Source: a virus. Taken from it: 24,882 bases of DNA. Every line of letters starts with the position of its first letter. Within the stretch, counting starts at the first letter, position 1. The position numbers and the translations under genes are program-made. The notes under the pieces were generated by a model. That model worked only from the letters and a program-made list of their open reading frames with translations. It was not told the origin of the DNA and made no database searches. The stretch lies in IMG/VR virus record IMGVR_UViG_3300030116_007036, positions 1 through 24,882 of that record; one strand, written 5' to 3'. Of the stretch, positions 422 to 23,739 are shown one piece after another.

Positions 422-715
422 CTAGCATCTCCAACGCTTAAGAGCGGCGCCCTTCGGCGTGAGTTTGCCACCCTTGCTTGTTGGCCCCTTAACGCCTCCC
501 ATGCGAGCACAAAAGGATCTTCTTCGTGCAGCCCGCTTCCCTTTGGGGTTGCTTTCAGTAACCGGAGGTTTGAGGTTAGCGCCCTCAGTGCGCTTGAAGT
601 GAGCCCGACCCTTGGCACTAAGACCACCCGTGCGGCTATGCTTCTTAGGATTATAACCAATAAAAGGCTTCTTTAGCTTTCTCTTTGCAGCCTTCTGCCG
701 ATCAGCACTCCTCAT
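422..715 (-). CDS. Small basic phage protein (DUF6321-like)
   Basis: A 97-aa, strongly basic, Cys-containing product. The central motif SRTGGLSAKGRAHFKRTEGANLKPPVT would read as a conserved block; its key parts are TGGL, AKGR and NLKPPVT at about residues 29-53. The C-terminal half has SFCARMGG (about residues 67-74) and ends in KRWRC. This pattern matches a small family I know from marine phages as DUF6321, whose function is unknown. The ATG at 715 overlaps the preceding stop by four bases (ATGA), with GAGGAAGAAG upstream. It may bind nucleic acid, judging by charge only. Confidence 0.75.
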   Translation of the reverse strand: MRSADRQKAAKRKLKKPFIGYNPKKHSRTGGLSAKGRAHFKRTEGANLKPPVTESNPKGKRAARRRSFCARMGGVKGPTSKGGKLTPKGAALKRWRC

Positions 716-1104
716 GTCTTCTTCCTCAGAGATGTGCCGGCCGCTAGACCATGACGAGAATACTGACGGCCGCTCCGAGTAGCAGCAGCTTTCTTTGTTG
801 CTGCCGCACGCAACTGAGATCGGCCAGAAGAAGTAGACTTCAATCTGCTTATCTTCTTGCTGGGAAGATAAACACCGGACCCGCCAGGTCCGGGTTTATC
901 CTTTCCAGAATACTTCCACTTCTGCTTTGACCAATGAGAAAGAGAAGTCTTCTTCTTCGCTCCACGATAGCCGCCGCCCCCACTCTTATAAAACTTGGTA
1001 GCCAATTGCATGGCACGGGCAGAATGCTTCCCGCCCATCTTAGCTTTTGCTCTAGCCTTAGATCGCTCCCAAAGCGCAGGGTTCGTCTTCTGTGCAATAC
1101 TCAT
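712..1104 (-). CDS. Basic Gly/Lys-rich phage protein (DUF5872-like)
   Basis: A 130-aa product with an N-terminal pattern NPALWERSKARAKAKMGGKHSARA split across residues 8-31 (key parts NPALWE, GGKHSAR), then AMQLATKFYKSGGGGYRG and a W-rich stretch SLSHWSKQKWKYSGKD. It ends in a Lys/Arg-rich tail. The NPxLWE ... W/HSARxxQLAxxxYK ... GGGYRG ... LSxWxxQKW layout fits DUF5872, found in phages and some giant viruses, with no known function. GGAG lies 9 bases before the ATG, and the start overlaps the preceding stop as ATGA. It is probably expressed with the other small late genes; a structural or DNA-binding role is only inferred from its charge. Confidence 0.75.
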   Translation of the reverse strand: MSIAQKTNPALWERSKARAKAKMGGKHSARAMQLATKFYKSGGGGYRGAKKKTSLSHWSKQKWKYSGKDKPGPGGSGVYLPSKKISRLKSTSSGRSQLRAAATKKAAATRSGRQYSRHGLAAGTSLRKKT

Positions 1105-1259
1105 TTCTTTTTGCTCCGAAGCATCCTTAACGCCGCATTCAGCCTGGCTACCTCGTCCTTTGTCAGCCGATCCTTCTTCCGGGTGCTAATACCAGCAAGC
1201 CGAAATGCAGCACGGTTCTCCTTGATCACACGGTCAATCTCAGACTGAGGAGGACGCAT
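1101..1259 (-). CDS. Small basic hypothetical protein
   Basis: A 52-aa product starting MRPPQSEIDRVIKENRAAF and ending RMLRSKKK, predicted largely helical and basic. It fits exactly between its neighbours: its ATG forms TAATG with the 120-aa gene upstream and its TGA forms ATGA with the DUF5872-like gene downstream. AAGGTG is present about 5 bases before the start. I do not recognise the family. Its reality is supported mainly by the two overlaps and the ribosome-binding site. Confidence 0.7.
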   Translation of the reverse strand: MRPPQSEIDRVIKENRAAFRLAGISTRKKDRLTKDEVARLNAALRMLRSKKK

Positions 1260-1621
1260 TACACCTTCTTACCAAGAACAGCGCTCAACCGAGAGTAATG
1301 ATCACGCATCTCAGTCAGACCCTCCTTCACCATACTCTCCATATCTTTCACTTCTTTCTCCAAGGAATCAAGCTTACTTCCTAGTTGCTGAAGTGTCTGG
1401 AGCCGCTCGTCATCGTACTTGCGGACAACAGCATCATACCGATCACGCACCTCCGCCTCACGACGATTGCACTCGTCGGCCTGCTCTTTGAGCTGTGCCT
1501 GGAAAGAATCTACCTGCTCCTGCTGGCGCTTGTTCCCCTGAACATAAAGCCAGAAGATAGCCCCGGAAGCTAACCCCAGCGCACCAAAATCTAATAACGC
1601 TGAGGTTAACTCGGGAGGCAT
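1259..1621 (-). CDS. N-terminal membrane anchor plus long coiled coil (spanin- or structural-type candidate)
   Basis: A 120-aa product with one hydrophobic segment at about residues 8-27, followed by roughly 85 charged residues with heptad character (QEQVDSFQAQLKEQADECN, then KLDSLEKEVKDMESMVKEGL). This N-in, coil-out layout is typical of i-spanins (Rz) and of some membrane-linked phage proteins. There is no lipobox partner nested in another frame that I can see, so the spanin assignment is weak. The ATG directly abuts the TAA of the upstream ORF. It continues the tightly packed minus-strand packaging block. Confidence 0.72.
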   Translation of the reverse strand: MPPELTSALLDFGALGLASGAIFWLYVQGNKRQQEQVDSFQAQLKEQADECNRREAEVRDRYDAVVRKYDDERLQTLQQLGSKLDSLEKEVKDMESMVKEGLTEMRDHYSRLSAVLGKKV

Positions 1622-1804
1622 TTAACTCTTTCGGTGGTTCCGAATCTCTTGGACGCTAACACGAATACCCTTACAGGATTTCGCTACCTCAGAGCAAACC
1701 TTACGGACACGTCGGCCCGCAGCATCGTTGCCCTTCTCGAAGCGCTCAAGATCCTCGACCGCAGCTTGCAGCCCCTCAATCATTTCTAATAAATCTGCTT
1801 TCAT
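1622..1804 (-). CDS. Histone H1/Hc1-like DNA-binding protein
   Basis: A 60-aa product starting MKADLLEMIEGLQAAVEDL and containing FEKGNDAAGRRVRKVCSEV (residues 22-40), then a basic end VQEIRNHRKS. The KGNxAAGxRxRKxxxE core followed by a K-rich helix is the hallmark of chlamydial Hc1-like and other bacterial histone H1-like proteins, which bind and condense DNA. It has its own GAGGAG about 11 bases upstream, inside the end of the small terminase gene. It shares its stop and frame with the 401-codon ORF, so it could be made alone or as that protein's C-terminus. Independent translation seems likely. Confidence 0.65.
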   Translation of the reverse strand: MKADLLEMIEGLQAAVEDLERFEKGNDAAGRRVRKVCSEVAKSCKGIRVSVQEIRNHRKS

Positions 1805-2827
1805 GGCTAATACTTCTCCTCTATGCGCAGAGCTTTCTTCTCTGCTGTTGTTTCCATGCCGCTCAAGACTTCGTAGATAGCCGTCGTCGAAGTCTTCGCC
1901 CGGTCGTCCAAGCCCCAGGTTTTCCGGTCCAAAAACGACACGTTCTTTACGATCTCCGATGCTACCTTGATCACCAGCAGCTGCTTGAACGGATCCTCGT
2001 TCGGATACGCCATAGCTCTCGCTAGTGCTTCGTTCATCATTTCCATCAGTGTGGAGGTCGCTGCCTTGTGCCTCGCTAACACTCCCTCCACCTCCGCTGT
2101 TACTTCGATCTCCGAGGTCTGGATCTTCTGCTCGATCACTCCCCTCGCCCTCTCCAGAATCGCGTCCGAGGTTAGACGAGTCGACCGCTGCCAATCCCCC
2201 GATTCTTTCCAGCGGTGGATAGTTCTTTCCGTTACTCCGTGCCTTACCGCCAGAGTCGCTACCTTCTCCCCGCTCTCGTACTCCGCCTGAATCATTGCTC
2301 GAAGTTCTGGATGGATTCTTCCCCCCGGACCTTTTGGCAACCTTTCGTTTAGAGGCAAGTCGGACGGGAGACTTGTAGATAGCTCCCCGCTTCTTGAGTT
2401 CTTTGATTTCTCCGCCATAGGTCAAATACTCCCTAATGTTCTCAGGTGTGTTCTCGTGCAGAATCAAGTGAGCGTCACCAAGAAGCTTCACGATCAGCTT
2501 CAATGCCTTAACATGGTCCTCAGTCTCACCAGGTTCGTTTCCTAGCGTGATAGAGGACTCCTCCTTATGATACCGCCGGAGACGCTCTACAAACATCCAG
2601 TGCTTCGGCCTGAGAGTTTTAGACGTGTGATACTGCGTCACATCTAAGACATTCCAAACCTCATCACGGGTAATCGTCTTCGTCGCTGAAACATTCTGAG
2701 CCAGGGTCATATTAGACTTCTGCCATTCATTGCAGCAATCCAGACTCATCTTAATCTGAGAGATGCACTCAGCGAGCAATCCCTCAACAAGATTAGAATC
2801 CAGAGTCGGTCGGAACTTATCGGACAT
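1622..2827 (-). CDS. 401-codon ORF: unknown N-terminal domain, disordered middle, histone H1-like C-terminus
   Basis: The ORF is open for 401 codons and starts with a strong AAGGAG four bases from ATG. Residues 1 to about 150 look like an ordinary folded protein (for example DEVWNVLDVTQYHTSKTL and HVKALKLIVKLLGDAHLIL) that I do not recognise. Residues 137-340 are read in a different frame from a probable small terminase gene and are very rich in Gly, Ser, Asp, Glu and Arg, as expected of an overprinted or non-coding frame. Residues 342-401 equal the separately startable histone-like protein. Either this is one real long protein with a disordered linker, or the upstream gene lost its stop and reads through. 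The N-terminal part is well supported as coding; the middle is not. Confidence 0.5.
   Translation of the reverse strand: MSDKFRPTLDSNLVEGLLAECISQIKMSLDCCNEWQKSNMTLAQNVSATKTITRDEVWNVLDVTQYHTSKTLRPKHWMFVERLRRYHKEESSITLGNEPGETEDHVKALKLIVKLLGDAHLILHENTPENIREYLTYGGEIKELKKRGAIYKSPVRLASKRKVAKRSGGKNPSRTSSNDSGGVRERGEGSDSGGKARSNGKNYPPLERIGGLAAVDSSNLGRDSGEGEGSDRAEDPDLGDRSNSGGGGSVSEAQGSDLHTDGNDERSTSESYGVSERGSVQAAAGDQGSIGDRKERVVFGPENLGLGRPGEDFDDGYLRSLERHGNNSREESSAHRGEVLAMKADLLEMIEGLQAAVEDLERFEKGNDAAGRRVRKVCSEVAKSCKGIRVSVQEIRNHRKS
1807..2418 (-). CDS. terS: Terminase small subunit-like protein (HTH)
   Basis: A 203-aa product in the frame shifted +1 from the surrounding 401-codon ORF. Residues 35-75 form a helix-turn-helix: EKVATLAVRHGVTERTIHRW, then KESGDW, the resolvase/transposase-like HTH found in many phage small terminases. 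After it comes a long helical region (residues 80-170, EIEVTAEVEGVLARHKAAT and onward) and a charged end. AGGGAG precedes the ATG by about 10 bases. Small terminases recognise the packaging site and load the large subunit. The large subunit lies a few genes downstream on the same strand, which supports the role. Other HTH DNA-binding functions are possible. Confidence 0.72.
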   Translation of the reverse strand: MAEKSKNSRSGELSTSLPSDLPLNERLPKGPGGRIHPELRAMIQAEYESGEKVATLAVRHGVTERTIHRWKESGDWQRSTRLTSDAILERARGVIEQKIQTSEIEVTAEVEGVLARHKAATSTLMEMMNEALARAMAYPNEDPFKQLLVIKVASEIVKNVSFLDRKTWGLDDRAKTSTTAIYEVLSGMETTAEKKALRIEEKY

Positions 2828-3108
2828 GTCACTCCTTTATGCGTTTTTTGGTGCGCAGAAAATTTCTCATATAGTGGGTGAGTGTGGATGCGGAGAGGAG
2901 GGGGTGGGGGTAGTGGTGTAGTGTAGTGTCATGCATGTCATGGATGTCAGTGGTTGTGCAAGTAGTATGCATCCACACTGCAGTTGTCATGCTCTCGTGC
3001 GGTAGTGAGTGTCATGAGGGAGAGTATATGTATCCCTGGATCTGCCCATCCTGCTTGCCCTTTGGGCAGGATGGTCCTGTCCAGTTCGCTAACGCATGGA
3101 GGTATGCA
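2828..3108. promoter_or_regulatory. Divergent intergenic region between packaging and early blocks
   Basis: These 281 bases separate the minus-strand packaging genes from the plus-strand early genes, so promoters for both are expected here. I see no convincing sigma-70 pair. A plus-strand ORF runs through from 2926, but the good ribosome-binding site and start are at 3109. A G-rich stretch (2892-2910) and GTCATG/ATGTCA near-repeats (2928-2960) lie here, along with a hairpin at 3046-3074. Function as a promoter region is inferred from the divergent layout. Confidence 0.45.
3046..3074 (+). promoter_or_regulatory. Hairpin in leader of the SSB-tail gene
   Basis: CCATCCTGC (3046-3054) pairs perfectly with GCAGGATGG (3066-3074). 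A smaller hairpin, TGCCC with GGGCA (3056-3068), would compete for the same bases. No T-tract follows, so this is more likely a leader or attenuator structure than a terminator. It lies 25 bases before the GGAGGT of the next gene. Confidence 0.45.
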
Positions 3109-3459
3109 ATGAAGAACGAAGTGTTTATTCTTAGGTCCACTGGCTTTAACAACGAGAACGGAACGTCGATCATGCTCAAGCAGATCAGCTTCTACAACGG
3201 TCAAGCGTACAAGCAGACGACCAAGGCTTGGGTGGCCGTCAAGAGCTACACCACCGAAGAGCTTGATGCTATGGTCGGCCAGGTGGTGATGGTCGATGGC
3301 AACATCCCCGGTGTCCGTGAAGGCGCTGAGAACGTGTCGTGCCGAGTGTGGCGCATCACTCCGGTGCTCGGCATGGTCAAGGACATGCTGAGGTCCGAGG
3401 GCTTGCTGCATGAGCCATCGGCGGACGGTGAGCTCGATGACGGTCCCATCCCGTTCTAG
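3109..3459 (+). CDS. Hypothetical protein with SSB-like acidic C-terminal tip
   Basis: A 116-aa product. The start at 3109 is chosen over an upstream in-frame ATG because GGAGGT lies six bases before it and the added N-terminus is not protein-like. It begins MKNEVFILRSTGFNNENG and has beta-rich stretches with QVVMVDGNIPG at about residues 58-68. It ends ADGELDDGPIPF, close to the DDDIPF tip with which bacterial SSB recruits repair and replication enzymes. The body is short enough for an OB fold, but I see no diagnostic SSB signature. It is the first early gene and is followed by a terminator. SSB-like or SSB-mimic function is an inference from the tip. Confidence 0.72.
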   Translation: MKNEVFILRSTGFNNENGTSIMLKQISFYNGQAYKQTTKAWVAVKSYTTEELDAMVGQVVMVDGNIPGVREGAENVSCRVWRITPVLGMVKDMLRSEGLLHEPSADGELDDGPIPF

Positions 3460-4527: not shown

Positions 4528-4764
4528 ATGTACAAAATGTATAAGTGCTCAAACAATATTTTCACACCAGTAAAGAAGGAAACAATGAACAGAAGAGAGA
4601 TTGCATTACTGGTTAAGACCGAGGCTGGATGGCTGCAGGTAGATGTCACAACCAGAGTAACTGATGTCGAGCAGATGATCATTGATAACCTAGAAGGTTA
4701 TCCTGCTGACACACCATACAAAGTGCAACAAAGGATTATCCTTCATGAAAGGGAGCAAGCATGA
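4528..4764 (+). CDS. Small hypothetical early protein
   Basis: A 78-aa product starting at 4528 with GGAGAAAGA directly upstream. An internal ATG at 4585 (MNRREIALLVKTEAGW) also has a purine-rich AAGGAAACA before it and would give 59 aa; the shorter form looks more protein-like. Its end overlaps the next gene as ATGA, suggesting coupled translation. No motif is recognised. Confidence 0.68.
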   Translation: MYKMYKCSNNIFTPVKKETMNRREIALLVKTEAGWLQVDVTTRVTDVEQMIIDNLEGYPADTPYKVQQRIILHEREQA

Positions 4765-5231
4765 ACTTCCATCCACTGTATATGAAAGATAGACCCGAGC
4801 GTCCGTATGTTACCACTGAAGAAGTCTTCCCTGTTGAGGATGAAGATAGAAGAATGAACAGGGAAGAGGGGACCTGGGATGGCTTCAGGGTGTACACATC
4901 AATCGACATTGGCAAGTGCCAGCAGCTTGCAGTGTCCAGCTTTGGTGATTGGCATGGTCGATTCAAGCGTCAAGCCATCGGTCCTGACAGGTGGTATGAG
5001 ACAGCGGTGATTGTCGAAAGCCAGACAGCGTGGGGACCTGTCAGGGTGACCGAGGTTATGGGTGGCGTGTTCACCGATGACCTAACAGGAACCAAGGAAG
5101 GTGATGATGCCAAGGCTCTTGCAGTACACAGAAAGCATGTAGCTAGGTTGGTTGCTGAGATTAACACACAGCTAGATCATGGTGTAGATACTCAGTGTAT
5201 TCTTTCAGCGATTAAGAGACGCTATCAATAG
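4761..5231 (+). CDS. Hypothetical early protein
   Basis: A 156-aa product overlapping the preceding stop by four bases, with AAAGGGAGC a few bases before the ATG. It begins MNFHPLYMKDRPERPYVTTE with an acidic region, then a mixed alpha/beta body (TWDGFRVYTSIDIGKCQQL; WGPVRVTEVMGGVFTDDLTG) and a helical, basic C-terminus with AVHRKHVARLVAEIN. The family is not recognised. It is the last gene of the pair before a GC-rich hairpin. Confidence 0.78.
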   Translation: MNFHPLYMKDRPERPYVTTEEVFPVEDEDRRMNREEGTWDGFRVYTSIDIGKCQQLAVSSFGDWHGRFKRQAIGPDRWYETAVIVESQTAWGPVRVTEVMGGVFTDDLTGTKEGDDAKALAVHRKHVARLVAEINTQLDHGVDTQCILSAIKRRYQ

Positions 5232-5250
5232 CAGTATAGATACAGAGAAA

Positions 5251-5278
5251 GAGGGCCCCCCTTTAGGGGGGGGCCCTC
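5251..5278 (+). terminator. GC-rich hairpin after the 156-aa gene
   Basis: GAGGGCCCCCC (5251-5261) pairs with GGGGGGCCCTC (5268-5278). The stem is very stable, but the following bases are CTCTCTTGATA rather than a T-run. It may act as a weak terminator, a pause site or an mRNA-end stabiliser. Confidence 0.55.
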
Positions 5279-5317
5279 CTCTCTTGATATGCATAGATAG
5301 AAAGTATAGAAAGTCTC

Positions 5318-5485
5318 ATGCTCTACCGATTCAACATTGTGCTTTACTCTGGTGGCGACACCCCAGAGGATGCGTTCAGTAACCTGCTGCACGACATACA
5401 GCAGACAGGCATGTCTCTCGAAGAAGAGATTGTATTCGAAAAGGTAGAGCTCCCTTTCAGTATAGACGAGACTCCTCCTTCCTAA
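5318..5485 (+). CDS. Small acidic hypothetical protein
   Basis: A 55-aa product starting MLYRFNIVLYSGGDTPEDAF and ending FSIDETPPS. The sequence has a plausible beta-alpha-beta feel and normal amino-acid composition. The ribosome-binding site is weak (AGAAAG about six bases away). Its last codons form the 5' arm of a hairpin that hides the next gene's ribosome-binding site, so translation of this ORF may control the neighbour. It could be a real protein or mainly a regulatory leader peptide. Confidence 0.58.
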   Translation: MLYRFNIVLYSGGDTPEDAFSNLLHDIQQTGMSLEEEIVFEKVELPFSIDETPPS

Positions 5486-5521
5486 GCCGTCGCTTCCTAC
5501 GGGCGACAGCCCGGAAGGAGG
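5474..5521 (+). promoter_or_regulatory. Hairpin sequestering the ribosome-binding site of the 123-aa gene
   Basis: CCTCCTTCC (5474-5482) is a perfect complement of GGAAGGAGG (5513-5521), which contains the Shine-Dalgarno of the gene at 5526. An inner stem GTCGC (5489-5493) with GCGAC (5503-5507) extends the structure. The upstream stop codon (5483-5485) lies just inside the 5' arm, so a ribosome finishing that ORF would open the hairpin. Confidence 0.7.
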
Positions 5522-5525
5522 TTGA

Positions 5526-5897
5526 ATGGATATTTCGGATGAGGAGATTGAGCATCTATATCAGATAGTTCATTCAGAAGCAGAGTCCTATGAGAGGGCT
5601 CTTGATTTAGTTGAGCACGAGCGACTGGATGCTAGTGCTCTTAGCCATTTCAATGGAGGTTATATGGCTGGACAGAATAGTTCTCGGGTAGAAATCAATG
5701 ATCTTACTGGCTCTGCTATTTGTGCGGACCATGAACGTGGGACTGTCGTTCAGTTGCACGGCTATGGTTACACACATCGCAAGCCATCGTTCTCTGTGAG
5801 CGAGCATACTGTTAGCCTGTTTATCAGTGTCGAAGAAGCACGTGACATGGCAGCCAAGCTGCTTGACTTCATTGCTAAGAAGGAGAAGGCATCATGA
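5526..5897 (+). CDS. Hypothetical early protein
   Basis: A 123-aa product with a very strong GGAAGGAGG four bases before its ATG. The N-terminal half is helical and acidic (DEEIEHLYQIVHSEAESYER). The C-terminal half has a beta-rich stretch (GTVVQLHGYGYTH; HTVSLFISVEEARDMAAKL) and a basic end. No family is recognised. Its stop overlaps the next start as ATGA. It is probably translationally coupled to the preceding 55-aa ORF through the hairpin. Confidence 0.78.
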   Translation: MDISDEEIEHLYQIVHSEAESYERALDLVEHERLDASALSHFNGGYMAGQNSSRVEINDLTGSAICADHERGTVVQLHGYGYTHRKPSFSVSEHTVSLFISVEEARDMAAKLLDFIAKKEKAS

Positions 5898-6130
5898 GTA
5901 TCACCGCACAAGTAGACACAGCATCTATTGAGGTATCCCTGGACATGCACCAGCTACGCACTGAGATTTCCGAAGTGCTTAGCGAAGAGTTCAATGAGCT
6001 AATAGAAAACGCAACTCCGAGCGAGCACATTCATATCAACAAAAGAATTGATGCGCTTGAAAAGAGAGTCGATGAACTGACTGCTCGGATTGTCGGAGCT
6101 GGATGCATGCTTACAGGGACGAGGACTTAA
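5894..6130 (+). CDS. Small coiled-coil hypothetical protein
   Basis: A 78-aa, acidic, mostly helical product. Residues 15-40 (DMHQLRTEISEVLSEEFNEL) and 47-66 (NKRIDALEKRVDELTARI) have heptad repeats suggesting a coiled coil. The ATG overlaps the previous stop by four bases, and AAGGAGAAGG lies just upstream. No family is recognised; it may be an oligomeric regulator or accessory protein. Confidence 0.7.
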   Translation: MSITAQVDTASIEVSLDMHQLRTEISEVLSEEFNELIENATPSEHIHINKRIDALEKRVDELTARIVGAGCMLTGTRT

Positions 6131-6132
6131 TC

Positions 6133-6297
6133 ATGATCGGACTAGTCATTCGCTTTACCGACAAAGAAAAGATGCAGGACTTTGTAGATACACAGCTTAG
6201 TGTCGTCTTTGATTCACCAGATTTGCAGACCAGACCAGCTGATTCCAGTGACCCTAAAGACTTGTACGTCTTAAACCGAGGGAGGGATGGGCGATGA
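6133..6297 (+). CDS. Small hypothetical protein
   Basis: A 54-aa product starting MIGLVIRFTDKEKMQDFVDT. The ATG at 6133 is preferred over an upstream in-frame ATG at 6103 because it avoids a long overlap and has GAGGAC about nine bases before it. A beta strand followed by a helix is suggested at the N-terminus. The end overlaps the next gene as ATGA. No family is recognised. Confidence 0.65.
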   Translation: MIGLVIRFTDKEKMQDFVDTQLSVVFDSPDLQTRPADSSDPKDLYVLNRGRDGR

Positions 6298-7616: not shown

Positions 7617-7638
7617 AGATTCTTGAACCATAGTGATG

Positions 7639-7688
7639 CCCCCTGGCAGTGCATTTTTATGCGCTGCTGGGGGGTTTTCTCTTTTCTT
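7639..7688 (+). terminator. Strong rho-independent terminator after DUF932
   Basis: CCCCCTGGCAGTGCAT (7639-7654) pairs with ATGCGCTGCTGGGGGG (7659-7674) with only G-U wobbles and a four-base TTTT loop. A T-rich run follows. It divides the early region into an upstream part and the replication module. Confidence 0.9.
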
Positions 7689-7716
7689 TTACAATAAAGA
7701 ACGATAGGAAGTGTGC

Positions 7717-9716: not shown

Positions 9717-10127
9717 ATGAGCATTTTTGCAGAAGCATTCGAGTCAGCAACTGAAACCCCGTCATATGGCCCACTGCCTGATGGCGATTACGAAGCACAG
9801 TTGATTGAGGTAAACACCTCTGATCATCCTATTACTGGGGTGACTGCAACCAATCTAGAGTATCGCATTACTCAGGGAGACAATGCAGATCGCAGGGTCT
9901 GGGATAACGTGACGCATCGTGATGATACGATGTGGAAGGTAGCTAAGATCTGGAATGCGATGGGGATGAATGGTCAACCTACGGACTGGGCAGAGTTCTC
10001 TCTTAAGCTAAGCCAGCACTGCACTAACAAGCACTTTACGATTACCGTAAAGAACCGTGACTACAATGGTAAGACTTATACCAACGTAACCTCGGTTCGC
10101 TTGAACGAAGAGAAGCCTCCGTTCTGA
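9717..10127 (+). CDS. DUF669 phage protein, probable ssDNA-binding partner
   Basis: A 136-aa product. The sequence PLPDGDYEAQLIEV (about residues 19-32) followed by a beta-rich core with RRVWDNVTHRD and WKVAKIWNAMG is typical of DUF669. These proteins sit beside Sak4-type ATPases and probably act as their ssDNA-binding partners. The last residues NEEKPPF resemble the acidic SSB tip. AAGGAG sits 7 bases before the ATG. The stop overlaps the RuvC-like gene start. Confidence 0.85.
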   Translation: MSIFAEAFESATETPSYGPLPDGDYEAQLIEVNTSDHPITGVTATNLEYRITQGDNADRRVWDNVTHRDDTMWKVAKIWNAMGMNGQPTDWAEFSLKLSQHCTNKHFTITVKNRDYNGKTYTNVTSVRLNEEKPPF

Positions 10128-10678
10128 TGGCTATACTGGGTATTGATCCAGGGTTCTCCAGTCTAGGCACGGCCGTCCTCTCCCTCCAGGGAGGGGGCGG
10201 CTCTGCTCAGACCTTCGATGAAGCAAACGTGTTTCGTACGCAGAAGGATAAGAAGAAGGTACTTGTGTGGGATGACAACGTAAAGAGATGCCAACAGATA
10301 CACACGTACCTCTCCGAACTGTGTGACATAAACAATTTTATTATGTTTGCGATTGAAGCAGAGAGCTGGACACGTATGCCAAGCGACAAGCAACTAGGGC
10401 TGGCACGAGGTGTCATCTACTCAGTTGCTGCATCCTTTGACATTCCTATTGTTCAGATAACAGCGAAGGATGTGAAGCACTTCCTTACTGGCTCAAAGAA
10501 AGCCAGCAAGGAAGATGTTCTTACTGCGCTAACTGAACGTTCTAATCTGGAGAAGAAACTTGTCCACCTACCACGAGGCCAATGGCAACATGCGGCAGAT
10601 GCAGCAGGATGTGCACTCTACGCATGGGAATGCAGCGAACTCTCAAGACTATATCGAAGAACACTCCTCTCTACGTAA
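10127..10678 (+). CDS. RuvC-like Holliday junction resolvase
   Basis: A 183-aa product with a RuvC RNase H-fold signature: GIDPG (residues 5-9, catalytic Asp7), FAIEAES (residues 74-80, Glu77 or Glu79), KDVKHFLTGSKKASKEDV (residues 114-131, junction-contacting region) and QHAADAAGCAL (residues 154-164, His155 and Asp158). It would cut branched DNA that arises in replication and before packaging. The ATG overlaps the DUF669 stop by one base (TGATGG). Its last ~90 bases overlap the helicase gene in a different frame. Confidence 0.88.
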   Translation: MAILGIDPGFSSLGTAVLSLQGGGGSAQTFDEANVFRTQKDKKKVLVWDDNVKRCQQIHTYLSELCDINNFIMFAIEAESWTRMPSDKQLGLARGVIYSVAASFDIPIVQITAKDVKHFLTGSKKASKEDVLTALTERSNLEKKLVHLPRGQWQHAADAAGCALYAWECSELSRLYRRTLLST

Positions 10679-11921
10679 CACTGCAGAACCTGTAGAGAGA
10701 CAGCTATTCAGTAACCTGATTTCATCTATAGATATTAAAGAGTCAGAGTTACAGGGGTTGCGGGTTGATGACTTCTGTACGCATCAGAACCAGCTAGTCT
10801 TCGATGCTATATGCAAATCAATCCACAAGAATAATCACTGCACAATCTACAGTGTGTCTGAGATACTCAGGGAGCAAGGCTCACTATACACAGCGGGTGG
10901 CGAGAACTACCTGATTGAGCTATCCGAAGCAGGTATCGGTCAATCAGATCCCCTCAAGGATCTGATTGCCCACGTAAAGAAGTACTCTCAGCTCAGAAGG
11001 ATTGAGCGTGCAGCACGCATGACATTGCGTGCTGTTGAGGGAGACAGTGTTGACCTAGCTACTGTTCAGCAAGTTACACGTCAGATGCTGCAGCAGATTG
11101 AGAAAGAAAAGAAGAAGCAGCCAAAGACCCTATCTGCATTTGATGGCATCACAAAGAAAGCCGCTGATACATTCAAGCCCGCTATTGTAACAGGCTGGCC
11201 CATCTTAGATGCATCAGTAAAGCTATCACCTGGCAGACTCGCAGTGCTTGGTGCGAGACCTGGCATGGGTAAGACCACACTTGCTACGCAGTTGTCAGCA
11301 CAGGTCCTGAAACATAATCGTGAAAGTCATGTGCTTTATTGCAGCGTAGAAATGGACGTAGCAGAAATCGGAGTAAAGGCACTGTCTGCATTATCTAAGA
11401 CAGATTGTGTTACTCCGTTTCAGAATGACAACCAGGAAGCAATAGATTTAGTCAACACCAGGGCTGGACATTACTCGCAGATATTGAGTAGACTTGCTGT
11501 CTTTTACGGTACCCGTCTCGATGAGCTAATCAACATCGCAAACTATCTGCACAAGGAAGTACCACTGAAGCTAGTGGTATGTGACTTCATCAGCAGTATG
11601 TCTCCTGGTGACAAGTACGGAACCAGGAGTGAGGCTATTGGGCATGTATCAAAAGCACTGAAGCAGCTAGCACGGGATCTACAAATCCCGGTGCTAGCCT
11701 GCTCTCAGCTTAACAGAGGAACCGGAGCTAACAGGGCACCAACTATGAAAGACCTGCGTGACTCAGGTGAGATTGAACAGGACGCTGACATCATCATGCT
11801 CCTGCACAAAGAAGATCCCGAGGATGATAGGACCCTTCTTATGATCGAGAAGAACAGGTTCGGAACCAACACTGTCCTGCATCTCGATACTCAGTTCCAG
11901 CATCATAGATTCTCTTTCTAA
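10590..11921 (+). CDS. dnaB: DnaB-like replicative helicase
   Basis: A 443-aa product from the ATG at 10590. A TTG at 10560 or a later start at 10599 is possible; no strong ribosome-binding site decides. The N-terminal domain begins near PVERQLFSNLI. The C-terminal RecA-like domain has Walker A GARPGMGKTT (about residues 221-230), YCSVEMD with the conserved Glu, Walker B LVVCDFIS, CSQLNRG (H3), SGEIEQDADIIMLLH (H4), and KNRFGTN with the arginine finger. This is a hexameric 5'-3' helicase that opens the replication fork. No primase domain is fused to it and none is seen nearby. Confidence 0.92.
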   Translation: MRQMQQDVHSTHGNAANSQDYIEEHSSLRNTAEPVERQLFSNLISSIDIKESELQGLRVDDFCTHQNQLVFDAICKSIHKNNHCTIYSVSEILREQGSLYTAGGENYLIELSEAGIGQSDPLKDLIAHVKKYSQLRRIERAARMTLRAVEGDSVDLATVQQVTRQMLQQIEKEKKKQPKTLSAFDGITKKAADTFKPAIVTGWPILDASVKLSPGRLAVLGARPGMGKTTLATQLSAQVLKHNRESHVLYCSVEMDVAEIGVKALSALSKTDCVTPFQNDNQEAIDLVNTRAGHYSQILSRLAVFYGTRLDELINIANYLHKEVPLKLVVCDFISSMSPGDKYGTRSEAIGHVSKALKQLARDLQIPVLACSQLNRGTGANRAPTMKDLRDSGEIEQDADIIMLLHKEDPEDDRTLLMIEKNRFGTNTVLHLDTQFQHHRFSF

Positions 11922-15584: not shown

Positions 15585-15709
15585 TTCTTCTTCTTTGCTG
15601 GCGCCTTGCGCTTTGCCTTTGGCTTAGCTTCAGGCTCAGGAACTTCAACCTCAATCTCAACAGGTCGAGCGGCTGGGCCAACATAAATGATTTTCTTTTC
15701 GGTAGCCAT
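15581..15709 (-). CDS. Small Lys/Pro-rich protein
   Basis: A 42-aa product: MATEKKIIYVGPAARPVEIE, then an acidic Pro-rich part and a Lys/Ala/Pro tail (KAKRKAPAKKKK). The start is in a TAATG overlap with the giant gene's stop; its own stop overlaps the endolysin start. It may be a small DNA-binding or virion protein; no family is recognised. Confidence 0.65.
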   Translation of the reverse strand: MATEKKIIYVGPAARPVEIEVEVPEPEAKPKAKRKAPAKKKK

Positions 15710-18700
15710 TAGTCTGCATATCTCCCCACGTTAACGTATCTGCCAGGTTTGATTCTTCTGTATTGAAGTATCTTTTTCTGTCTTTCAATCTCGCTGCTAA
15801 GTTCGTTAATCTGATTCTGTATAGAAAGCGCCTTACCAGGATCACTAGTTCTATATATCATTTTGGCTTCACTTTTAAGTGAATCAAGTCTGTCTTGCAT
15901 TGTCTTGGTAAACTTATCTACAAACTTCATTTCCTTCTTAGTCATGTTTACCTTTTTAAATCCACCAAACACACGCTGAATAACCATCTTCCCTATTGGA
16001 ACTGCGTTAGTGTAATCACCATCAGAAAATGGGCTGCTAAACTTAAGAGGCGAGTATTTAAATGTTGGGCTTGTTGGGCCACCGGCAGCAAGCAAGCCAT
16101 AGCCAAGCTGAGCTGGAGTACCACCAATAAAAGCAGCACTAGCCTTTACGAGATATTCAGTAAGACCAGGCTCTTTAAATCCATACTGCTTAGCACCCTG
16201 CCCCATCATTAACATTTCACTAATAACGTTGCCCGTAATGAGAGATATATCGAGTGCTTCCTTCATGCCGACCTTAAGAAAGCCAGACTCAAATGCCTTA
16301 TTAAGCCTCTTGACTTCTTCTGTCGGCTCGATGCCCATTGCCTTATAGGCAGCATCAGTTAGCCCACCAGCGCTTTTGAGACCGATCATCAATGTCTGAA
16401 GAGCAGGAGCAAGGCTGTTCATATTTCTTGCGCTAGACACCCAAGAGTAACCAGCATCATTGGAGTCATATACAACATTGTTACCAAGGGTAAATGTACC
16501 AGGACCAGTCTCATTAACCTGTCCATTGTAAACATCAATATCACTAGCAACACCCTTAAGAGAGTTCATGTAGGCAATAGCACGCAAGGCCCTCAAGGCT
16601 TGCGTGCCTACATGTGCAGGTGAGATAGAGTTACCACTCATCGGCGTGTAGGTGTTATCATCAAAGAATATAGCCGAAAGGATTCCACGTTTACCTGGCA
16701 AGGGAACCATTTTGTATGACCAGGTTGGAAACCAGCTAAACAAACTACCAAGAGTATTAGCTCTAAGAACAGGGATTATTGCACCAACATCAGCTAAGTA
16801 GTTAGGAATAAGACGATAGGCATTTCGCTCTGCAGCAATAGCCATATACCTATCAATTTGCTTTTGGCTTAATGGCTTGCCTTCTTCTAAGTACCACCTG
16901 CCATTCTTGTCTCTGTTTAAAACTATCTTACTATTTAAACTTTGCTCTAGCTGAATGGAGGTAACATCTTTGTTATTCATGTGACCATCCATTACTTTGA
17001 AGTGATGTTCATAGAGAGCTAGCTTCCCGCCTGCATCACCAAAGTTATAACCAGTACGAGCACCACGCTCTATTGCATCAACAGCCCTCTTCGATGGCTT
17101 AGCCCAGTACTTACCACCAAAGTATTCGTTTATATAACTACCAACAGCAGCAAGGCGAGGACTGCCAACAGATGAAAACGCATCAGCCATATCGGGCAGC
17201 TCTGAAAGCTGAGCTAACTCTGCCTGGGCAAGGTCACTCCCTTCAAGTTGAAGGTTTTCTAATTGATCATAAGCACGCTTGGTTTGATCATCGATTTTAA
17301 TTTGACCAGAACGATATGCCTTGGATGAAGCTCCACCTCGTTTTAGTTTGCGATACTTAGCTAGGCGTATAACACTTGTTACAGTTTGTATTACAGTATC
17401 CATAGGCATGTTGCCAAAGTACATGCTCATTGTGCCTACATTAGAAAAGTAATTACCCTGCTGAGTAGGTAGATTCCAAACAGTCATCTTACCCTTACTG
17501 TTAAGAACCATGCGCTCAAGCAAACTACGGCTAACAAATCTTTGATTACTCCAACCAAACGAGTTGTTCATACCCGGAGTAACTTTAAACTTCCAAACAG
17601 CAGGCAGTGCCTTCTGCCTAATATCTGCAGATGTTTTGAATATGGGATCCTGAGAGTTAACAAACATTTCCTGAACAACAGGGGATAGACTGGCAGCCGA
17701 ACCTTTTGTTCTGCCACCAGAAACACCAGGAAAGAAACCCAGCTCTAGGTTCTCGCCAATACCGTTAAGAGTTTTTAACTGAGGCACTTCACGAGCAAGA
17801 AGCCCATTGTCACCAAATATCTTAGTTGTATCAGCCAGTGTAAGCTGAGTTCCATACTTCTCTTTAAGTACACTATCTAAGTGACCAGCAAGCTTTTTTC
17901 TGTTGCTTGGATCTAAGATGTAAGAAGCAAGCTGAGCGCCGTCTAGATTACCGGGTAGGCTATTAGGGATAGAGCGATCATCAATAACACGGCGCTCAAC
18001 AATTTTCTTAGCTGCATCCTCAAGAGTAAGGTTGTTAAATCTTTGCTCAACACGACTCCAGATAACCTCATTGTATCCAGTAGTTTTTCCGGGGCGCTGA
18101 ACATTCTGCCGGTATATAGGTTGCCTGTCTTTGACTGCATCTAAGTGCTCATCAAAGAAGTACCGAAGGTGATAGTTAAACATGCCCTTATAAAAACCAG
18201 CTCGACCAGCTTCTGCAGAAATAACAGAAGCAAGGTTTTTAATAGCATCCCTTGCAATCTGCTGAGCCACGGTAAGCCCATCTGCATCAGGGTTGTTCAT
18301 TTCCTTGCGAAGAGTATCTCTAACAGCACGAGCCATATCGACCTTGCGGCCATTAGATAGCTTTAATGTCCCAGGGATTCTAGCAACAAGGCCCCCCTGC
18401 ATTCCAATAGGAGCAAGCAACGGAAGCCTGTATTGATCTAGGTGATTTAATACTTCTTTTACAAACTTGTAATAAACTGTCCTGTTAGTCTTGGGGTTTA
18501 AACCAGAAGCCTCAAGTGCCTTAGTTGCAATGTCTTTTGCTATAGCATTTTGCAGTTTCTCGCTGGCAAGTATAGACCAGCCAAAACCCGCAGCGTCCTG
18601 AATAGCACGAACAGCTCCGTATACTTTAGGACCAGTGCCACGCTCACGAACAATGCCAAGTCCTTTAAGAATATCCTTCATCTGACCAAGCACTTCAGAA

Positions 18701-21700
18701 ATGTAAATATCTGTTGGCCTCCTCAGAAAAGTAGAGAATCCTTGCCCATCTTTAGAAGGCTTAAGCTCAGGCAGAAGAACAGATGCAAAGTCATACGTAG
18801 GGTTGGTATTATCAGGGCGGGTGCCGGCGGGCACAGCCGCACCGCCCTGGTGCATCTCTGTCTCCTGATCAACAAGAGTATTAGTTGCTTCCTGCTTCTG
18901 TTCCTCTGTTAGATTCTTAGATTTATTAATAGCAGCCTTCTGCTTTTCAATACCAAGAGGAGTTTCTGGTATTAAATTAGCACTGCTCTTTGGAGGAACA
19001 GCTTTATCAACTGCAGACTTCGCTACCCTAGCAGCACGCTTATACGCAGAGGGGGGCAACTCTGGTCCTTGGAGCGGACCAAGCATGCTAGTATTTGCAA
19101 TAGCACGATCAGCGATATTAGCAGCCTGTACATCTGAAAGATAAACAACTGGCTCCTTGGGATCTGCAAACTCAAGTCCGAGACTTTTAGCCTCCTTGGT
19201 AATAGCAGCCAGCTCATCTTTAGTAAGAAACTGACTAACACCAAACTCCTTAGCAGGTGCAGAGTCAGGGCCATATGTTTCAGCCAGACTCCTTGCATAA
19301 GCCTTGCTGACCTCAACAGGCACATTCTCTGGGCCATACTGTTTTACTGCAGCATCAAAGACATTGTGATTAGCATATACGTTTGGGTTATTGCTAATAA
19401 GCTGGGCATAGGTAGCACTCTCAGCAGCAGGCTGTTTGTCCTTACTAAAGCCTTTAGCAAAGTCTTTAATATCTCCAACAATACCATCAAGTGCAATATC
19501 ATCAGCAGCATAACGTGATAAAGCAACATCACGCTTTTGTTGCTCTCGGACACTAGAGGTGTGCTCCTTAACTCTTTCGGGAAAAGACTTAACAACCTCA
19601 CCTTCTCGCCTGACCTTAGCAACAATAGGCTTCCTTGCGGGTGTCGGCTCAGCCCGTTTAGGCTTTGGCCTTTTAGGGCCAGGAAGTTTTTTTCTGCCAG
19701 GTATAAAGGTTTCTTTAGGGACAACGGTTTGCCTAGGAACAGGCCCCTGCAATCCAGCAGAAAGAACATCCTTTACCTTGGCACGGTCATTAAAAACCCT
19801 ATTGCCAGCAACATTAATCGTACGAATATTATTATCTGCTACAAACTTTGAGAACTGCTTTGGTGTTGGATTTTCAATGTAAGGTTTATTGTGCTTGCTG
19901 GCAAAGTTTCTAGTCATCCTTGTGCCAGGAGAGTTTGTGTCTACTGCAAATACAACAGTCCCATCACTATCAATAACATTCTGTTCTGTACGCTGGCGAT
20001 AGCCAGGAGTCTTAGACTCCTTAAGATTAAACCTTGTACGCAAAGTAAAGTCAGCACCGTCTCTAGTCCTAAATCCTTTTGGTGCAGTACCACCTGTCTT
20101 AATGCCAAGCTCACGTGCTACCTCTAGGCCCAGCTTATCTGCACCTACCTGGCCGCCGCTAATAACCTTTTCAATCCTAGCAGCAGGCTCTCTAACCTTG
20201 CCCTGCCCAATAACTTCTCTAGGAGTTGCAGCAGAGGTAGATACAGGGGCTGGTTTACTTGTTCCTTCTTTAGCAAAATCACCCCCATACTTTTCGCTCA
20301 TGCGCTCAGATTCGGTTAATTTCCTTGCACTAGGAGAATCATAGTACCTTGTAGGTATTTTTTTTGTTGGAGCAGTAACGATAGCGGGATCAATAGGAAT
20401 GTCCTGAGTTCTAGCTAGTCCACGCTCAGCAAGCTTTCGTGCAATAAAGCCATCAGGTTTAATAGCACCAGTCTCACTAACTTCTGTTTTTAAAGTAGGG
20501 TTAGTTCGAGACTTACTTCTCTTAGAAATAATCCCCAGCTCTCTAAGCTGATCGATAACACTGTTTCGCTCAAGTCGAAGCTGCTGTTTTACCAGATCAT
20601 TTAAAACCAAAGACCTTTTGTCTAATGCTGACAGGTTGGCAAAGTCTGTTTCACTATCAATACCAAGTTCAGCAAGACGCTTTCTTCCCTGGCTAGTTAG
20701 TCCATCATAAAGACTAAGTGCGGTATCCGGGGCATCAATCTGCTGGCGTATCTGATCAGTAACAGTTCGTACATATGCCTCATCGGCTTTAGGGCCACGA
20801 ATAGTAATAGCCCCTGCTTGTACAGGTGCAGCCTCTCCACCCTCATCGATGGCAGCAAGCACATCTTTAGTTGGAATGTTCTCTTTAGTAAGTGCATCTC
20901 TAGAAAGAGAATCAAGTCTATCGGTAAGAACATCCCTGACAGCAGGGTCACGCTCTGTCTTTAGCCTGCGGACGATTAGCGTTAGCTTAGCTAATGAACC
21001 AGGAACAGTAGCTAAGAGTTTATCAACAGCAGCAATAGCGGTTGCATCTAAAGAACGAACAGTGCCCTCTTCGCCTTTAACAAAAGCAATAACTGCAGCT
21101 TTAAGGTTTTTCTTTTCGGGCAGGCTTTCTCTAACAGCCTTAAGAGACATGCCTCTATACATAGCAAATGCTTTTAGTTCCGGTACGTTCATGCCCTCGA
21201 TCTGATCAAGAACCTTTTGCCTCTCTTCCGCTAAGCGCTTAACAGTTTCTGTCTGGTCAACAGGGGGTTCTTTCTGAATACCAAGTTCTCTGGCCCTAGC
21301 TCCTATAGGCCTTTCGGATATGCCTAGCTCAGACATCTTAATAACAGCAATAGGCGCTGCAGGTGTATAACCCTTTGCAAGCTGAACGTTGCCGCCATCG
21401 CCTACATTGCCGAGATCCTTACGCCGAAATACAACAACATAATTACCATACCCTGCTTCAGTAAACGGAGTTGCCGAAACACCGCCAGCATCTAACTTGC
21501 CAGCATTAACAATATCAAAAGACGATGCCTCATCTGTAGTATGGAAAAGATAGTCCTCTGTTTTTTGGTTCCTAATATCATCTATTAGCTGATCTCTTTG
21601 AGGCTCCTTAAGAAACTCTGGCTTGTCTCTATCTAACCAAGTTCTACTGGCCTCACGCTCCCGCATAGCCTGACGAACTTCTGTTTGTGTTGCTTGCTTA

Positions 21701-23739
21701 GGTGGTGCAGCCTCGGGAGCAGGGGCATCAGCATCCCTGGGCCTAACACGAGTAATAGGAATGGGTTGCTCCATTCCTTCTACATATACAGAGATGCCAG
21801 CCTTATCCTTAACTACAGCCCTTACAGCAGATGGAGTGCCTGGATTCCCCTCGGCATCAACAAAGTTAATAGTCTCGCCCACAACGGGCTCTGGAGGCGG
21901 AGCAACAGTTTCATCTAGCGCCTCTTCGAATCGAGTCTTTCTAGCCTCTGGGGTGATCTCCGCTTGGCGCACAGAAGCAGCAGCATCTTTTCTAGATACT
22001 GGGGTAGCTCTTTGTGCTGTTGTAGCTCTTGAAATAACTTCCGGCGTTACGGCCTCTGATATTTTAGCTGCAGCAGAATCGATAGAAGACCTGCCAGCAA
22101 CAACATCACTAGCCAACTGCCTGGCAATCTGCTCCTGCTCAGGTGTTAACTGCCTAAAGTAATTGATAAAGTTAGTAGCCATAAACGTGCTCATGGCATT
22201 GTAGGTTTTGTTATTTAACCCACCGCCATGAAACTGTTTAAGCAAAGCAATGAATGCACCAGCTTCAGGCACACCAGCCATTAGTCCGTAGAATGCAGCA
22301 GCCGTAAACTCAGCAGCAACCTGACCACGAGTCTTGGTAGAAAGCAGTGAGTCTTTAACTACAAAGTCACTAGCTTTCTTAGGTTTCTTATCCTTAAAGA
22401 GTTGCGCCATCGCATTGATAACTTGAGGGCGATATTCTTTTATGGGGATATTTGTAAGAGGAACAGTAGCCTCTTTGTCGAATCCAATTTTCTTTGCAAC
22501 AGCAGCCTTGGCCTTTGAAACAAGGCCAACTGCTGCTGCTGCCTTGGGTGACAACTCAACAAGCTGATCTACTAAACCGGCAGTCTTGCCACCCTTAGCA
22601 CGAACAGCCTTAGCAAGCTGAAAGCCCAGGAAGCCAATCATTGCAGTATCTAAGGGCCGGGCTCTAATCATCCCAGCAGGGTCGTCATCAATAGCTTTAA
22701 TCATAGCCCTAAAGCCATAACCAAGGCTTTTGCCAATACCAACACCCGACTTAATTCTGTCTTCAATTATGTCAGGAAATATAGACTCGACTAAACCAAA
22801 GTCTATACCTGCATCCCTAATTAAGCGCTCGTATTCATCATCAGGAACAGCAGCAATAATTTGCTTTATAAGATGCCAACTACCCTGATTTAACTCAACA
22901 AAGTTATCGATAAGCAGTTCGCCACGGCCCTTGTCCTTAGACTCCCTAATAGACTTTTTAAAATGACTAAGTGTTTGTACAAATGGATCTACCGAAAAAG
23001 GTTCAGCGCTTTCGTTTAAATAGTTGCGGCTTCGGTTTAAGCTGTTTTTTTCTTCTGTGGTTAACTCATCATACGGATCATCAAGAACACGATGCTCTCT
23101 AATGAGAGTCCTTGCGCTCTTAGCAAATGGGCCCATGCGCCTAGAAATAGCCCGACCTACTAAGGTAAGAGTTTTTTCATTATCACCAAGTTGCGAAAAC
23201 AAATGAGCACGCTTGTCAATATGCGCCTTAACCCAAAGCCCCTCGTCTAATTTAGACTCAGGATTATCTTTCTTCCAACGACGAAACGCAGTGCGAAGCT
23301 TTCGCTCCATGTTTCCAAACTCATCTGCGACAAGAACATCATTGTTAAGAGCCTCGGAGTAAGCACGCTTAGCAACACTTGGCTCTACAAAACCATAAAG
23401 CATTCCAGCCTTAATTGCTGATGTCCCAATAATTGGTGTTAGCAATACCTGAGATGCATCATAAGCAAACTCAGAGCCCAGAAGGGTTTTAGGCCCTTCT
23501 GGCTCTGGTTGCTGAGGCTGTCTAGGTTGAGCAGGTTGCTCGGGCTGCATTTGTTGAACAGGCTGCTGAGGCTGCTGAGGTTGCCGCTGCTCTTGCACAG
23601 GAGCAGGTTGCTGGAGTTCTGCTTCTCTCTCCTCAGCAAGCTCTCTAAGTCTATCCAAACCAGATCCAGCAGGAAGAGCGAACTGATTTTCTCTTTCATT
23701 AGCTAACTCTGCTAAACGCTCAAGGCCACTGCGGTTCAT
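15709..23739 (-). CDS. Giant 2676-aa protein with SLOG/MoCo-carrier domain, probable ejected or polyvalent virion protein
   Basis: The largest ORF here, uninterrupted for 2676 codons. Visible parts: a tandem N-terminal repeat (SGLERLAELANERE at 4-17; SGLDRLRELAEERE at 26-39); a Gln/Pro-rich spacer (42-82); a possible ADP-ribosyltransferase-like segment around 725-815 (LFHTTDEASSFD, GGVSATPF); a clear putative molybdenum-carrier/SLOG-type domain around 1190-1315 (VISGGQVGADKLGLEVAREL, GGTAPKGFR, YRQRTEQNVIDSDGTVVF, IRTINVAGNR); and a long C-terminal half with conserved-looking motifs (NSFGWSNQRFVSRSLLERM at ~2060; SLFSWFPTWSYKMVPLPG at ~2330). Many domains on one phage polypeptide is typical of polyvalent proteins and podophage internal virion proteins delivered with DNA. 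No strong ribosome-binding site precedes it, so coupling to the upstream gene is likely. Confidence 0.82.
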   Translation of the reverse strand: MNRSGLERLAELANERENQFALPAGSGLDRLRELAEEREAELQQPAPVQEQRQPQQPQQPVQQMQPEQPAQPRQPQQPEPEGPKTLLGSEFAYDASQVLLTPIIGTSAIKAGMLYGFVEPSVAKRAYSEALNNDVLVADEFGNMERKLRTAFRRWKKDNPESKLDEGLWVKAHIDKRAHLFSQLGDNEKTLTLVGRAISRRMGPFAKSARTLIREHRVLDDPYDELTTEEKNSLNRSRNYLNESAEPFSVDPFVQTLSHFKKSIRESKDKGRGELLIDNFVELNQGSWHLIKQIIAAVPDDEYERLIRDAGIDFGLVESIFPDIIEDRIKSGVGIGKSLGYGFRAMIKAIDDDPAGMIRARPLDTAMIGFLGFQLAKAVRAKGGKTAGLVDQLVELSPKAAAAVGLVSKAKAAVAKKIGFDKEATVPLTNIPIKEYRPQVINAMAQLFKDKKPKKASDFVVKDSLLSTKTRGQVAAEFTAAAFYGLMAGVPEAGAFIALLKQFHGGGLNNKTYNAMSTFMATNFINYFRQLTPEQEQIARQLASDVVAGRSSIDSAAAKISEAVTPEVISRATTAQRATPVSRKDAAASVRQAEITPEARKTRFEEALDETVAPPPEPVVGETINFVDAEGNPGTPSAVRAVVKDKAGISVYVEGMEQPIPITRVRPRDADAPAPEAAPPKQATQTEVRQAMREREASRTWLDRDKPEFLKEPQRDQLIDDIRNQKTEDYLFHTTDEASSFDIVNAGKLDAGGVSATPFTEAGYGNYVVVFRRKDLGNVGDGGNVQLAKGYTPAAPIAVIKMSELGISERPIGARARELGIQKEPPVDQTETVKRLAEERQKVLDQIEGMNVPELKAFAMYRGMSLKAVRESLPEKKNLKAAVIAFVKGEEGTVRSLDATAIAAVDKLLATVPGSLAKLTLIVRRLKTERDPAVRDVLTDRLDSLSRDALTKENIPTKDVLAAIDEGGEAAPVQAGAITIRGPKADEAYVRTVTDQIRQQIDAPDTALSLYDGLTSQGRKRLAELGIDSETDFANLSALDKRSLVLNDLVKQQLRLERNSVIDQLRELGIISKRSKSRTNPTLKTEVSETGAIKPDGFIARKLAERGLARTQDIPIDPAIVTAPTKKIPTRYYDSPSARKLTESERMSEKYGGDFAKEGTSKPAPVSTSAATPREVIGQGKVREPAARIEKVISGGQVGADKLGLEVARELGIKTGGTAPKGFRTRDGADFTLRTRFNLKESKTPGYRQRTEQNVIDSDGTVVFAVDTNSPGTRMTRNFASKHNKPYIENPTPKQFSKFVADNNIRTINVAGNRVFNDRAKVKDVLSAGLQGPVPRQTVVPKETFIPGRKKLPGPKRPKPKRAEPTPARKPIVAKVRREGEVVKSFPERVKEHTSSVREQQKRDVALSRYAADDIALDGIVGDIKDFAKGFSKDKQPAAESATYAQLISNNPNVYANHNVFDAAVKQYGPENVPVEVSKAYARSLAETYGPDSAPAKEFGVSQFLTKDELAAITKEAKSLGLEFADPKEPVVYLSDVQAANIADRAIANTSMLGPLQGPELPPSAYKRAARVAKSAVDKAVPPKSSANLIPETPLGIEKQKAAINKSKNLTEEQKQEATNTLVDQETEMHQGGAAVPAGTRPDNTNPTYDFASVLLPELKPSKDGQGFSTFLRRPTDIYISEVLGQMKDILKGLGIVRERGTGPKVYGAVRAIQDAAGFGWSILASEKLQNAIAKDIATKALEASGLNPKTNRTVYYKFVKEVLNHLDQYRLPLLAPIGMQGGLVARIPGTLKLSNGRKVDMARAVRDTLRKEMNNPDADGLTVAQQIARDAIKNLASVISAEAGRAGFYKGMFNYHLRYFFDEHLDAVKDRQPIYRQNVQRPGKTTGYNEVIWSRVEQRFNNLTLEDAAKKIVERRVIDDRSIPNSLPGNLDGAQLASYILDPSNRKKLAGHLDSVLKEKYGTQLTLADTTKIFGDNGLLAREVPQLKTLNGIGENLELGFFPGVSGGRTKGSAASLSPVVQEMFVNSQDPIFKTSADIRQKALPAVWKFKVTPGMNNSFGWSNQRFVSRSLLERMVLNSKGKMTVWNLPTQQGNYFSNVGTMSMYFGNMPMDTVIQTVTSVIRLAKYRKLKRGGASSKAYRSGQIKIDDQTKRAYDQLENLQLEGSDLAQAELAQLSELPDMADAFSSVGSPRLAAVGSYINEYFGGKYWAKPSKRAVDAIERGARTGYNFGDAGGKLALYEHHFKVMDGHMNNKDVTSIQLEQSLNSKIVLNRDKNGRWYLEEGKPLSQKQIDRYMAIAAERNAYRLIPNYLADVGAIIPVLRANTLGSLFSWFPTWSYKMVPLPGKRGILSAIFFDDNTYTPMSGNSISPAHVGTQALRALRAIAYMNSLKGVASDIDVYNGQVNETGPGTFTLGNNVVYDSNDAGYSWVSSARNMNSLAPALQTLMIGLKSAGGLTDAAYKAMGIEPTEEVKRLNKAFESGFLKVGMKEALDISLITGNVISEMLMMGQGAKQYGFKEPGLTEYLVKASAAFIGGTPAQLGYGLLAAGGPTSPTFKYSPLKFSSPFSDGDYTNAVPIGKMVIQRVFGGFKKVNMTKKEMKFVDKFTKTMQDRLDSLKSEAKMIYRTSDPGKALSIQNQINELSSEIERQKKILQYRRIKPGRYVNVGRYAD

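Follow-up and report, generated by a model that had tools for sequence, protein, structure and literature searches.

A probable small-terminase gene nested within a longer same-strand reading frame that runs into a histone-like domain in a phage

Introduction

At the locus described here, which belongs to a group of uncultured tailed phages, a probable small-terminase gene (terS) lies wholly within a 401-codon open reading frame (ORF) that is read in another frame of the same strand. Such a layout raises the question of whether the outer frame is translated across the inner gene and how the outer gene came to extend over it. The original prediction left two explanations side by side, namely genuine overprinting, or loss of the stop codon of an upstream gene that now reads into a histone-like gene. 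Both were followed here in the window, i.e. the whole stretch of DNA that was analysed (a single virus record of 24,882 bp), and in related contigs.

Layout of the nested locus

The features of the locus are as follows:

2827..1622 (-): outer ORF, 401 aa, ATG start; helical N domain, hydrophilic overprinted tail and Hc1
2418..1807 (-): terS-like gene, 203 aa, ATG start, helix-turn-helix and long helices; wholly within the outer ORF
2419..2827 (-): single-coded part of the outer ORF (N domain); 16-member alignment, AlphaFold2 model
1805..2418 (-): dual-coded stretch, terS and two bases past its stop; its outer-frame product is the hydrophilic tail
1622..1804 (-): Hc1 (histone H1-like) domain, 60 aa; in the outer frame, own ATG at 1804 also usable
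2832..2836 (-): Shine-Dalgarno-like AGGAG, 5' of the outer ORF
2429..2434 (-): Shine-Dalgarno-like AGGGAG, 5' of terS
1816..1821 (-): Shine-Dalgarno-like GAGGAG, 5' of the internal Hc1 ATG; also in two relatives (L001 and L012)
1259..1621 (-): coiled-coil gene, 120 aa, conserved, starting right after the outer stop; marker for finding relatives

The ORF coordinates predicted originally proved exact, and the two ORFs form a same-strand nested pair in which the inner one lies wholly inside the outer one and is offset by one base, terS codon position 3 being outer codon position 1. The overlapped middle is a low-complexity stretch of Gly, Ser, Asp and Arg between two protein-like ends, just as had been described. 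Of these ends, the C-terminal one had been called histone-like, and it does match the Hc1 profile PF07432 above its curated cut-off (E 2.3e-12, 47.0 bits vs 23.5). Hc1 matches of 40-45% were obtained in cultured phages, among which the histone H1 gene of Synechococcus phage S-SRM01 also matches.

Other genes of the window present features of their own. After the coiled-coil gene, 422..715 and 712..1104 (-) encode two small, very basic proteins, one of them a DUF6321 protein (E 3.5e-17; this domain is common to the C-termini of larger phage proteins, phrog_10346) and the other weakly related to DUF5872; counting Hc1, the cluster holds three possible DNA-associated proteins. Further along, a replicative-helicase-like ORF named by eye (10560..11921, +) has a candidate TTG start 119 nt inside the preceding RuvC-like ORF (10127..10678). 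A single 2,676-codon gene (15709..23739, -) takes up a third of the window, and its codons end in T far more often than those of terS.

Relatives and identity of the genes

A scan with the outer protein recovered a single relative, the contig L001, in which the outer ORF (5001-6206) is fully open over 401 codons, without any indel and 74% identical to that of the window, the TerS proteins being 85% identical. Scans with the coiled-coil gene, the large terminase (TerL) and TerS added about 15 further contigs having the gene of the N domain (N gene) beside terS, and scans of genome contigs yielded no relative. Roseobacter phage CRP-7 (TerL 30% identical) and Morganella phage Mecenats66 were considered as outgroups and left out.

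The gene at 2418..1807 is probably a small terminase, mainly because its orthologues stand beside TerL in relatives. The window ends before any TerL, and in L001 this gene occupies positions 7004-8578, ~1 kb downstream of terS; it also lies downstream of the terS orthologues in L013, L046-L052 and others. The naming is further based on weak helix-turn-helix matches, which fall below the Pfam cut-off, and small-terminase PHROGs appear among the weak matches of up to 13 of the 16 members. The best match among cultured phages is 25%, and the predicted model combines a helix-turn-helix with long helices at a pTM of 0.31.

As for the N domain, AlphaFold2 predicts a five- or six-helix protein (pLDDT 86, pTM 0.81) with one structural match, to an uncharacterised viral protein (E 1.6e-5). 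No Pfam or PHROG family matched it and no homologue was found among cultured phages. A sequence search of the PDB gave no match for TerS or the N domain, and Foldseek against the PDB returned nothing significant for either, the match of TerS to Sf6 TerS included. In the close family the N gene is always located directly upstream of terS.

An outer frame kept open across terS

Over terS, the outer frame runs through 203 codons without a stop. Given the offset of the two frames, an outer stop arises only if a T-ending terS codon precedes a codon starting with AA, AG or GA. When the synonymous codons of terS were shuffled, a mean of 6.9 outer stops was obtained and only 0.01% of the shuffles had none. 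Imposing the codon usage of the other window genes on terS raised the mean to 21.9 (minimum 11 in 5000 draws), and with the codon usage of terS orthologues free of overlap the mean was 16.9 and the minimum 6. The equivalent frame of every other window gene tested contains 5-44 stops, or 338 in the 2,676-codon gene, most of these genes having one stop per ~7-20 codons. The outer frame is thus more open than the codons of terS predict, and it is conserved as such in L001. More than 600 stop-free bases in a second frame had been singled out as unusual, and they are so in view of the many stops that both shuffles and codon-usage draws predict.

Two trivial causes were discarded. Pure chance or codon bias is ruled out by the shuffles, by the other window genes and by the placement of T described below, and an assembly or frameshift error by the independent contig L001, with its 401 open codons, no indel and 74% identity.

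A more direct view of selection on the outer frame was obtained by taking the terS codons that can end in T without changing TerS and sorting them by the effect of that T in the outer frame. At sites where T would make a stop, none of 41 codons carries it in the window and none of 41 in L001, compared with 624 of 1295 (48%) in the other window genes; zero T in this class is in part definitional for an open frame, which is not so for the hydrophobic and Ser classes. At sites where T would make F, L, Y, C or W, it is present in 7/68 codons in the window and 4/71 in L001, as against 52% in the other window genes. Where T would make Ser, its frequency in terS is normal (13/24 in the window and 12/24 in L001; 47% in the other window genes). 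The single-coded parts of other terS orthologues have T at 36%, 41% and 47% of stop-, hydrophobic- and Ser-making sites, respectively. The same contrast is seen within single loci. In the terS genes of the partly overlapped relatives L012 and L014, T occupies 3/52 hydrophobic-making sites inside the overlap with the outer gene vs 20/62 outside it (p = 4e-4), whereas at Ser-making sites it occupies 15/35 inside and 10/28 outside (p = 0.6). Pooled P values for T placement overstate the evidence since the sequences are related, a fault of which these within-locus contrasts are free. The normal use of Ser-making T shows that this base is not avoided in general; terS avoids it at sites where the outer protein would be terminated or made more hydrophobic.

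Divergence between the window and L001 points in the same direction. Four-fold sites of terS differ at 21/79 positions vs 57/104 (~55%) in the flanking genes (p = 1.5e-4), the latter being 17/31 in the N gene, 12/25 in Hc1 and 28/48 in the coiled-coil gene, and the terS four-fold sites that carry a stop risk differ at 1/18. In simulations where only terS was constrained and evolved at the flanking rate, the two lineages together gained ~16 new outer stops, with a minimum of 4. At the slow rate of terS itself, with its T-poor composition, 2 new outer stops were expected and the probability of zero was 0.13, which is the weakest point of the argument, although the depressed rate and the composition may themselves stem from the constraint of dual coding.

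The absence or rarity of T at stop- and F/L/Y/C/W-making sites, its normal use at Ser-making sites and the halved four-fold divergence together indicate that the outer frame is probably translated, with selection against stops and hydrophobic residues. Selection is thereby seen on both frames, on TerS as 85% identity with codon positions 1 and 2 seldom changed, and on the outer frame as T placement and reduced four-fold divergence. It is important to remark that what is selected in the tail appears to be its openness and composition. Substitutions at terS positions 1 and 2 stand at 26:14, the same ratio as in the single-coded N gene (36:19), and the outer product over terS is less conserved than TerS (72% vs 85% identical), so that selection for particular tail residues finds no support.

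An open frame could also arise with no outer translation at all, as a by-product of the codon bias of terS, of strand composition or of a DNA signal conserved within the gene, for instance a pac site. Packaging sites within terS genes are known in other phages, and this terS is both GC3-rich (0.66) and synonymously slow. However, none of these causes accounts for the normal use of Ser-making T, nor for the 6.9 stops that shuffles preserving the bias still produce; the pattern is absent from neighbouring genes and from non-overlapped orthologues, and a pac site would not follow the stop of the outer gene in L012 and L014. This explanation is regarded as highly improbable.

It might be argued instead that read-through is merely tolerated, the stop having been lost by chance, the tail being harmless, hydrophobic residues being avoided as toxic and the fusion to Hc1 doing nothing. 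The low complexity of the tail and its faster evolution relative to TerS fit this idea, and overlaps commonly form by 3' elongation of the upstream gene, for which selection is not needed (PMC3887535). Nevertheless, a harmless tail would be unprotected from stops, each of which would just shorten it, and yet stop-making T occurs at 0/82 sites and change at stop-risk four-fold sites is limited to that 1/18, which leaves tolerated read-through improbable. The avoidance of T only at sites making stops or bulky hydrophobic residues, together with the halved synonymous divergence of terS, shows that the extension of the outer gene does not amount to decay. The overprinting considered at the outset is supported by these two patterns.

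A graded series of overlaps among relatives

The overlap between the N gene and terS varies widely in the family. It amounts to 4 nt in L054, L055 and L084, 32-41 nt at nine loci, 68 nt in L105, 266 nt in L014 and 344 nt in L012, with L013 having the same arrangement as L012 in a different metagenome. Full overlap is found in two sequences only, the window and L001, in which the N gene continues in frame through terS into Hc1. L012 has a separate Hc1 gene 3' of terS (match at 4669-4845), in the frame of the N gene, and five stops within terS separate the two. In the TerS tree the window, L001, L012 and L014 form one clade (99/99), to which overlaps longer than 68 nt are confined.

This gradation, from 4-68 nt through 266 and 344 nt to the absence of any stop, argues for stop loss as the origin of the nesting and accords with the proposal of an upstream gene now reading into the histone-like one. 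An outer-frame stop close to 2418, the feature suggested for comparison among relatives, does exist in the more distant ones outside the clade but not in L001, the closest relative found. L012 and L014 could either represent intermediates or derive from a longer overlap that was truncated later. The sequences by themselves establish the nesting, the gradation of overlaps and selection for a stop-free, hydrophobic-poor outer frame.

Outside the group formed by the window, L001, L012 and L013, no Hc1 match lies between terS and the coiled-coil gene in L014 (4360-5001) or L041-L058, and for this reason Hc1 was probably inserted in that subgroup. In the more distant L018 (1170-4479) and L030 (5001-8294) the order is coiled coil, terS and N gene, and the matched parts of the last two do not overlap.

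Predicted products of the locus

The outer-frame tail, of ~190 residues, consists of 32% Gly and Ser, 16% V/I/L/M/F/Y/W/C and ~33% charged residues, without Cys or Trp, and from this composition it is expected to be a disordered linker. Hc1 has retained its GAGGAG and its own ATG just past the terS stop, as is also the case in L001 and L012, and free Hc1 is probably still made on that account. No Rfam match to a structured RNA was found within 1200-3200.

In the model favoured here, the gene 5' of terS would have lost its stop codons step by step, until its reading frame, one base off that of terS, ran uninterrupted across the whole of terS and joined that of the downstream Hc1 gene. Three proteins would most likely result: a 401-residue fusion, TerS from its own Shine-Dalgarno sequence and ATG, and free Hc1 from those it has kept. 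The fusion would combine the helical N domain, the hydrophilic disordered tail and the Hc1 DNA-binding domain, and with its Hc1 end it might tether or organise the DNA of the phage close to the packaging machinery. This last idea derives from the position of the N gene just upstream of terS in close relatives and from the fact that Hc1 proteins bind DNA. The Hc1 of Chlamydia is known to bind and compact DNA, as cited in PMC12619734, and Hc1-like genes, of unknown role, have been reported in jumbo 'moraphages' (PMC12619734). A genuine same-strand nested pair that arose by stepwise stop loss, with three likely products, is considered very probable; the action of the fusion as a tether is put forward more tentatively.

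A narrower function, in which the N domain and its hydrophilic extension make up the functional unit, reading into Hc1 is incidental and Hc1 acts alone, has to be weighed against that model. L012 and L014 carry overprinted tails without any fusion, and the internal start signals of Hc1 are in place, both of which would be anticipated if the tail alone mattered. Still, stops are avoided along the entire tail up to the Hc1 start in both fused phages, and this narrower function is judged rather unlikely, if less so than tolerated read-through.

Comparison with known systems

A close parallel to the nested pair is lambda Rz/Rz1, in which a gene of a dsDNA phage also lies wholly inside another on the same strand and in the +1 frame (PMC6139136). 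Those are lysis genes, whereas here a packaging gene is involved; moreover, the inner gene is there typically located in the 3' part of the outer one, while in the present case the outer gene extends beyond the inner one and is fused to a third. Spanin pairs occur embedded, overlapped or separated, but their survey found no family mixing the embedded form with other architectures, and the loss of a stop that extends the upstream gene past its neighbour was only envisioned (PMC6139136). The phage family described here, in contrast, holds 4-nt, partial and full overlaps.

Similarities with phiX174 D/E and other viral overprinted genes reside in the internal overlap and in the hydrophilic, disorder-prone product of the newer frame, in keeping with the tendency of overprinted proteins to be disordered (reviewed in PMC8227390). 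The new coding sequence extends, in this case, an existing gene at its C-terminal end instead of forming a separate gene with a start of its own. Long unidirectional overlaps in prokaryotes share the route of upstream stop loss and 3' elongation, although their frequency falls with length (PMC3887535), whereas here all 612 nt of the downstream gene are covered and selected to stay open. Finally, the domain of Hc1 proteins (PF07432), those of phages included, is the same, but here it is also found at the C-terminus of a longer ORF, the one overprinting terS. Three features are new, namely that the inner gene is a small-terminase gene, that the outer gene passes it to fuse with a third one, and that the family presents a graded series from adjacent to nested; no report of such an arrangement was found among open-licence papers.

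Significance

It is about an even call whether the pair has been caught in the process of forming, with successive steps (4, ~40, 266 and 344 nt, then nesting and fusion) preserved among relatives and one stretch of DNA encoding three co-selected products. In that case, the new fusion would span the whole of terS and link a domain associated with packaging to one that is histone-like and binds DNA. The origins of nested genes are usually guessed from their end states, and a family in which 4-nt, partial and embedded forms coexist makes the route readable and testable. At the same time, the avoidance of third-base T offers a simple codon test to detect translation of a low-complexity overlapping frame. 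More generally, the locus would represent a form of gene birth in which a domain fusion arises without deletion of the intervening gene.
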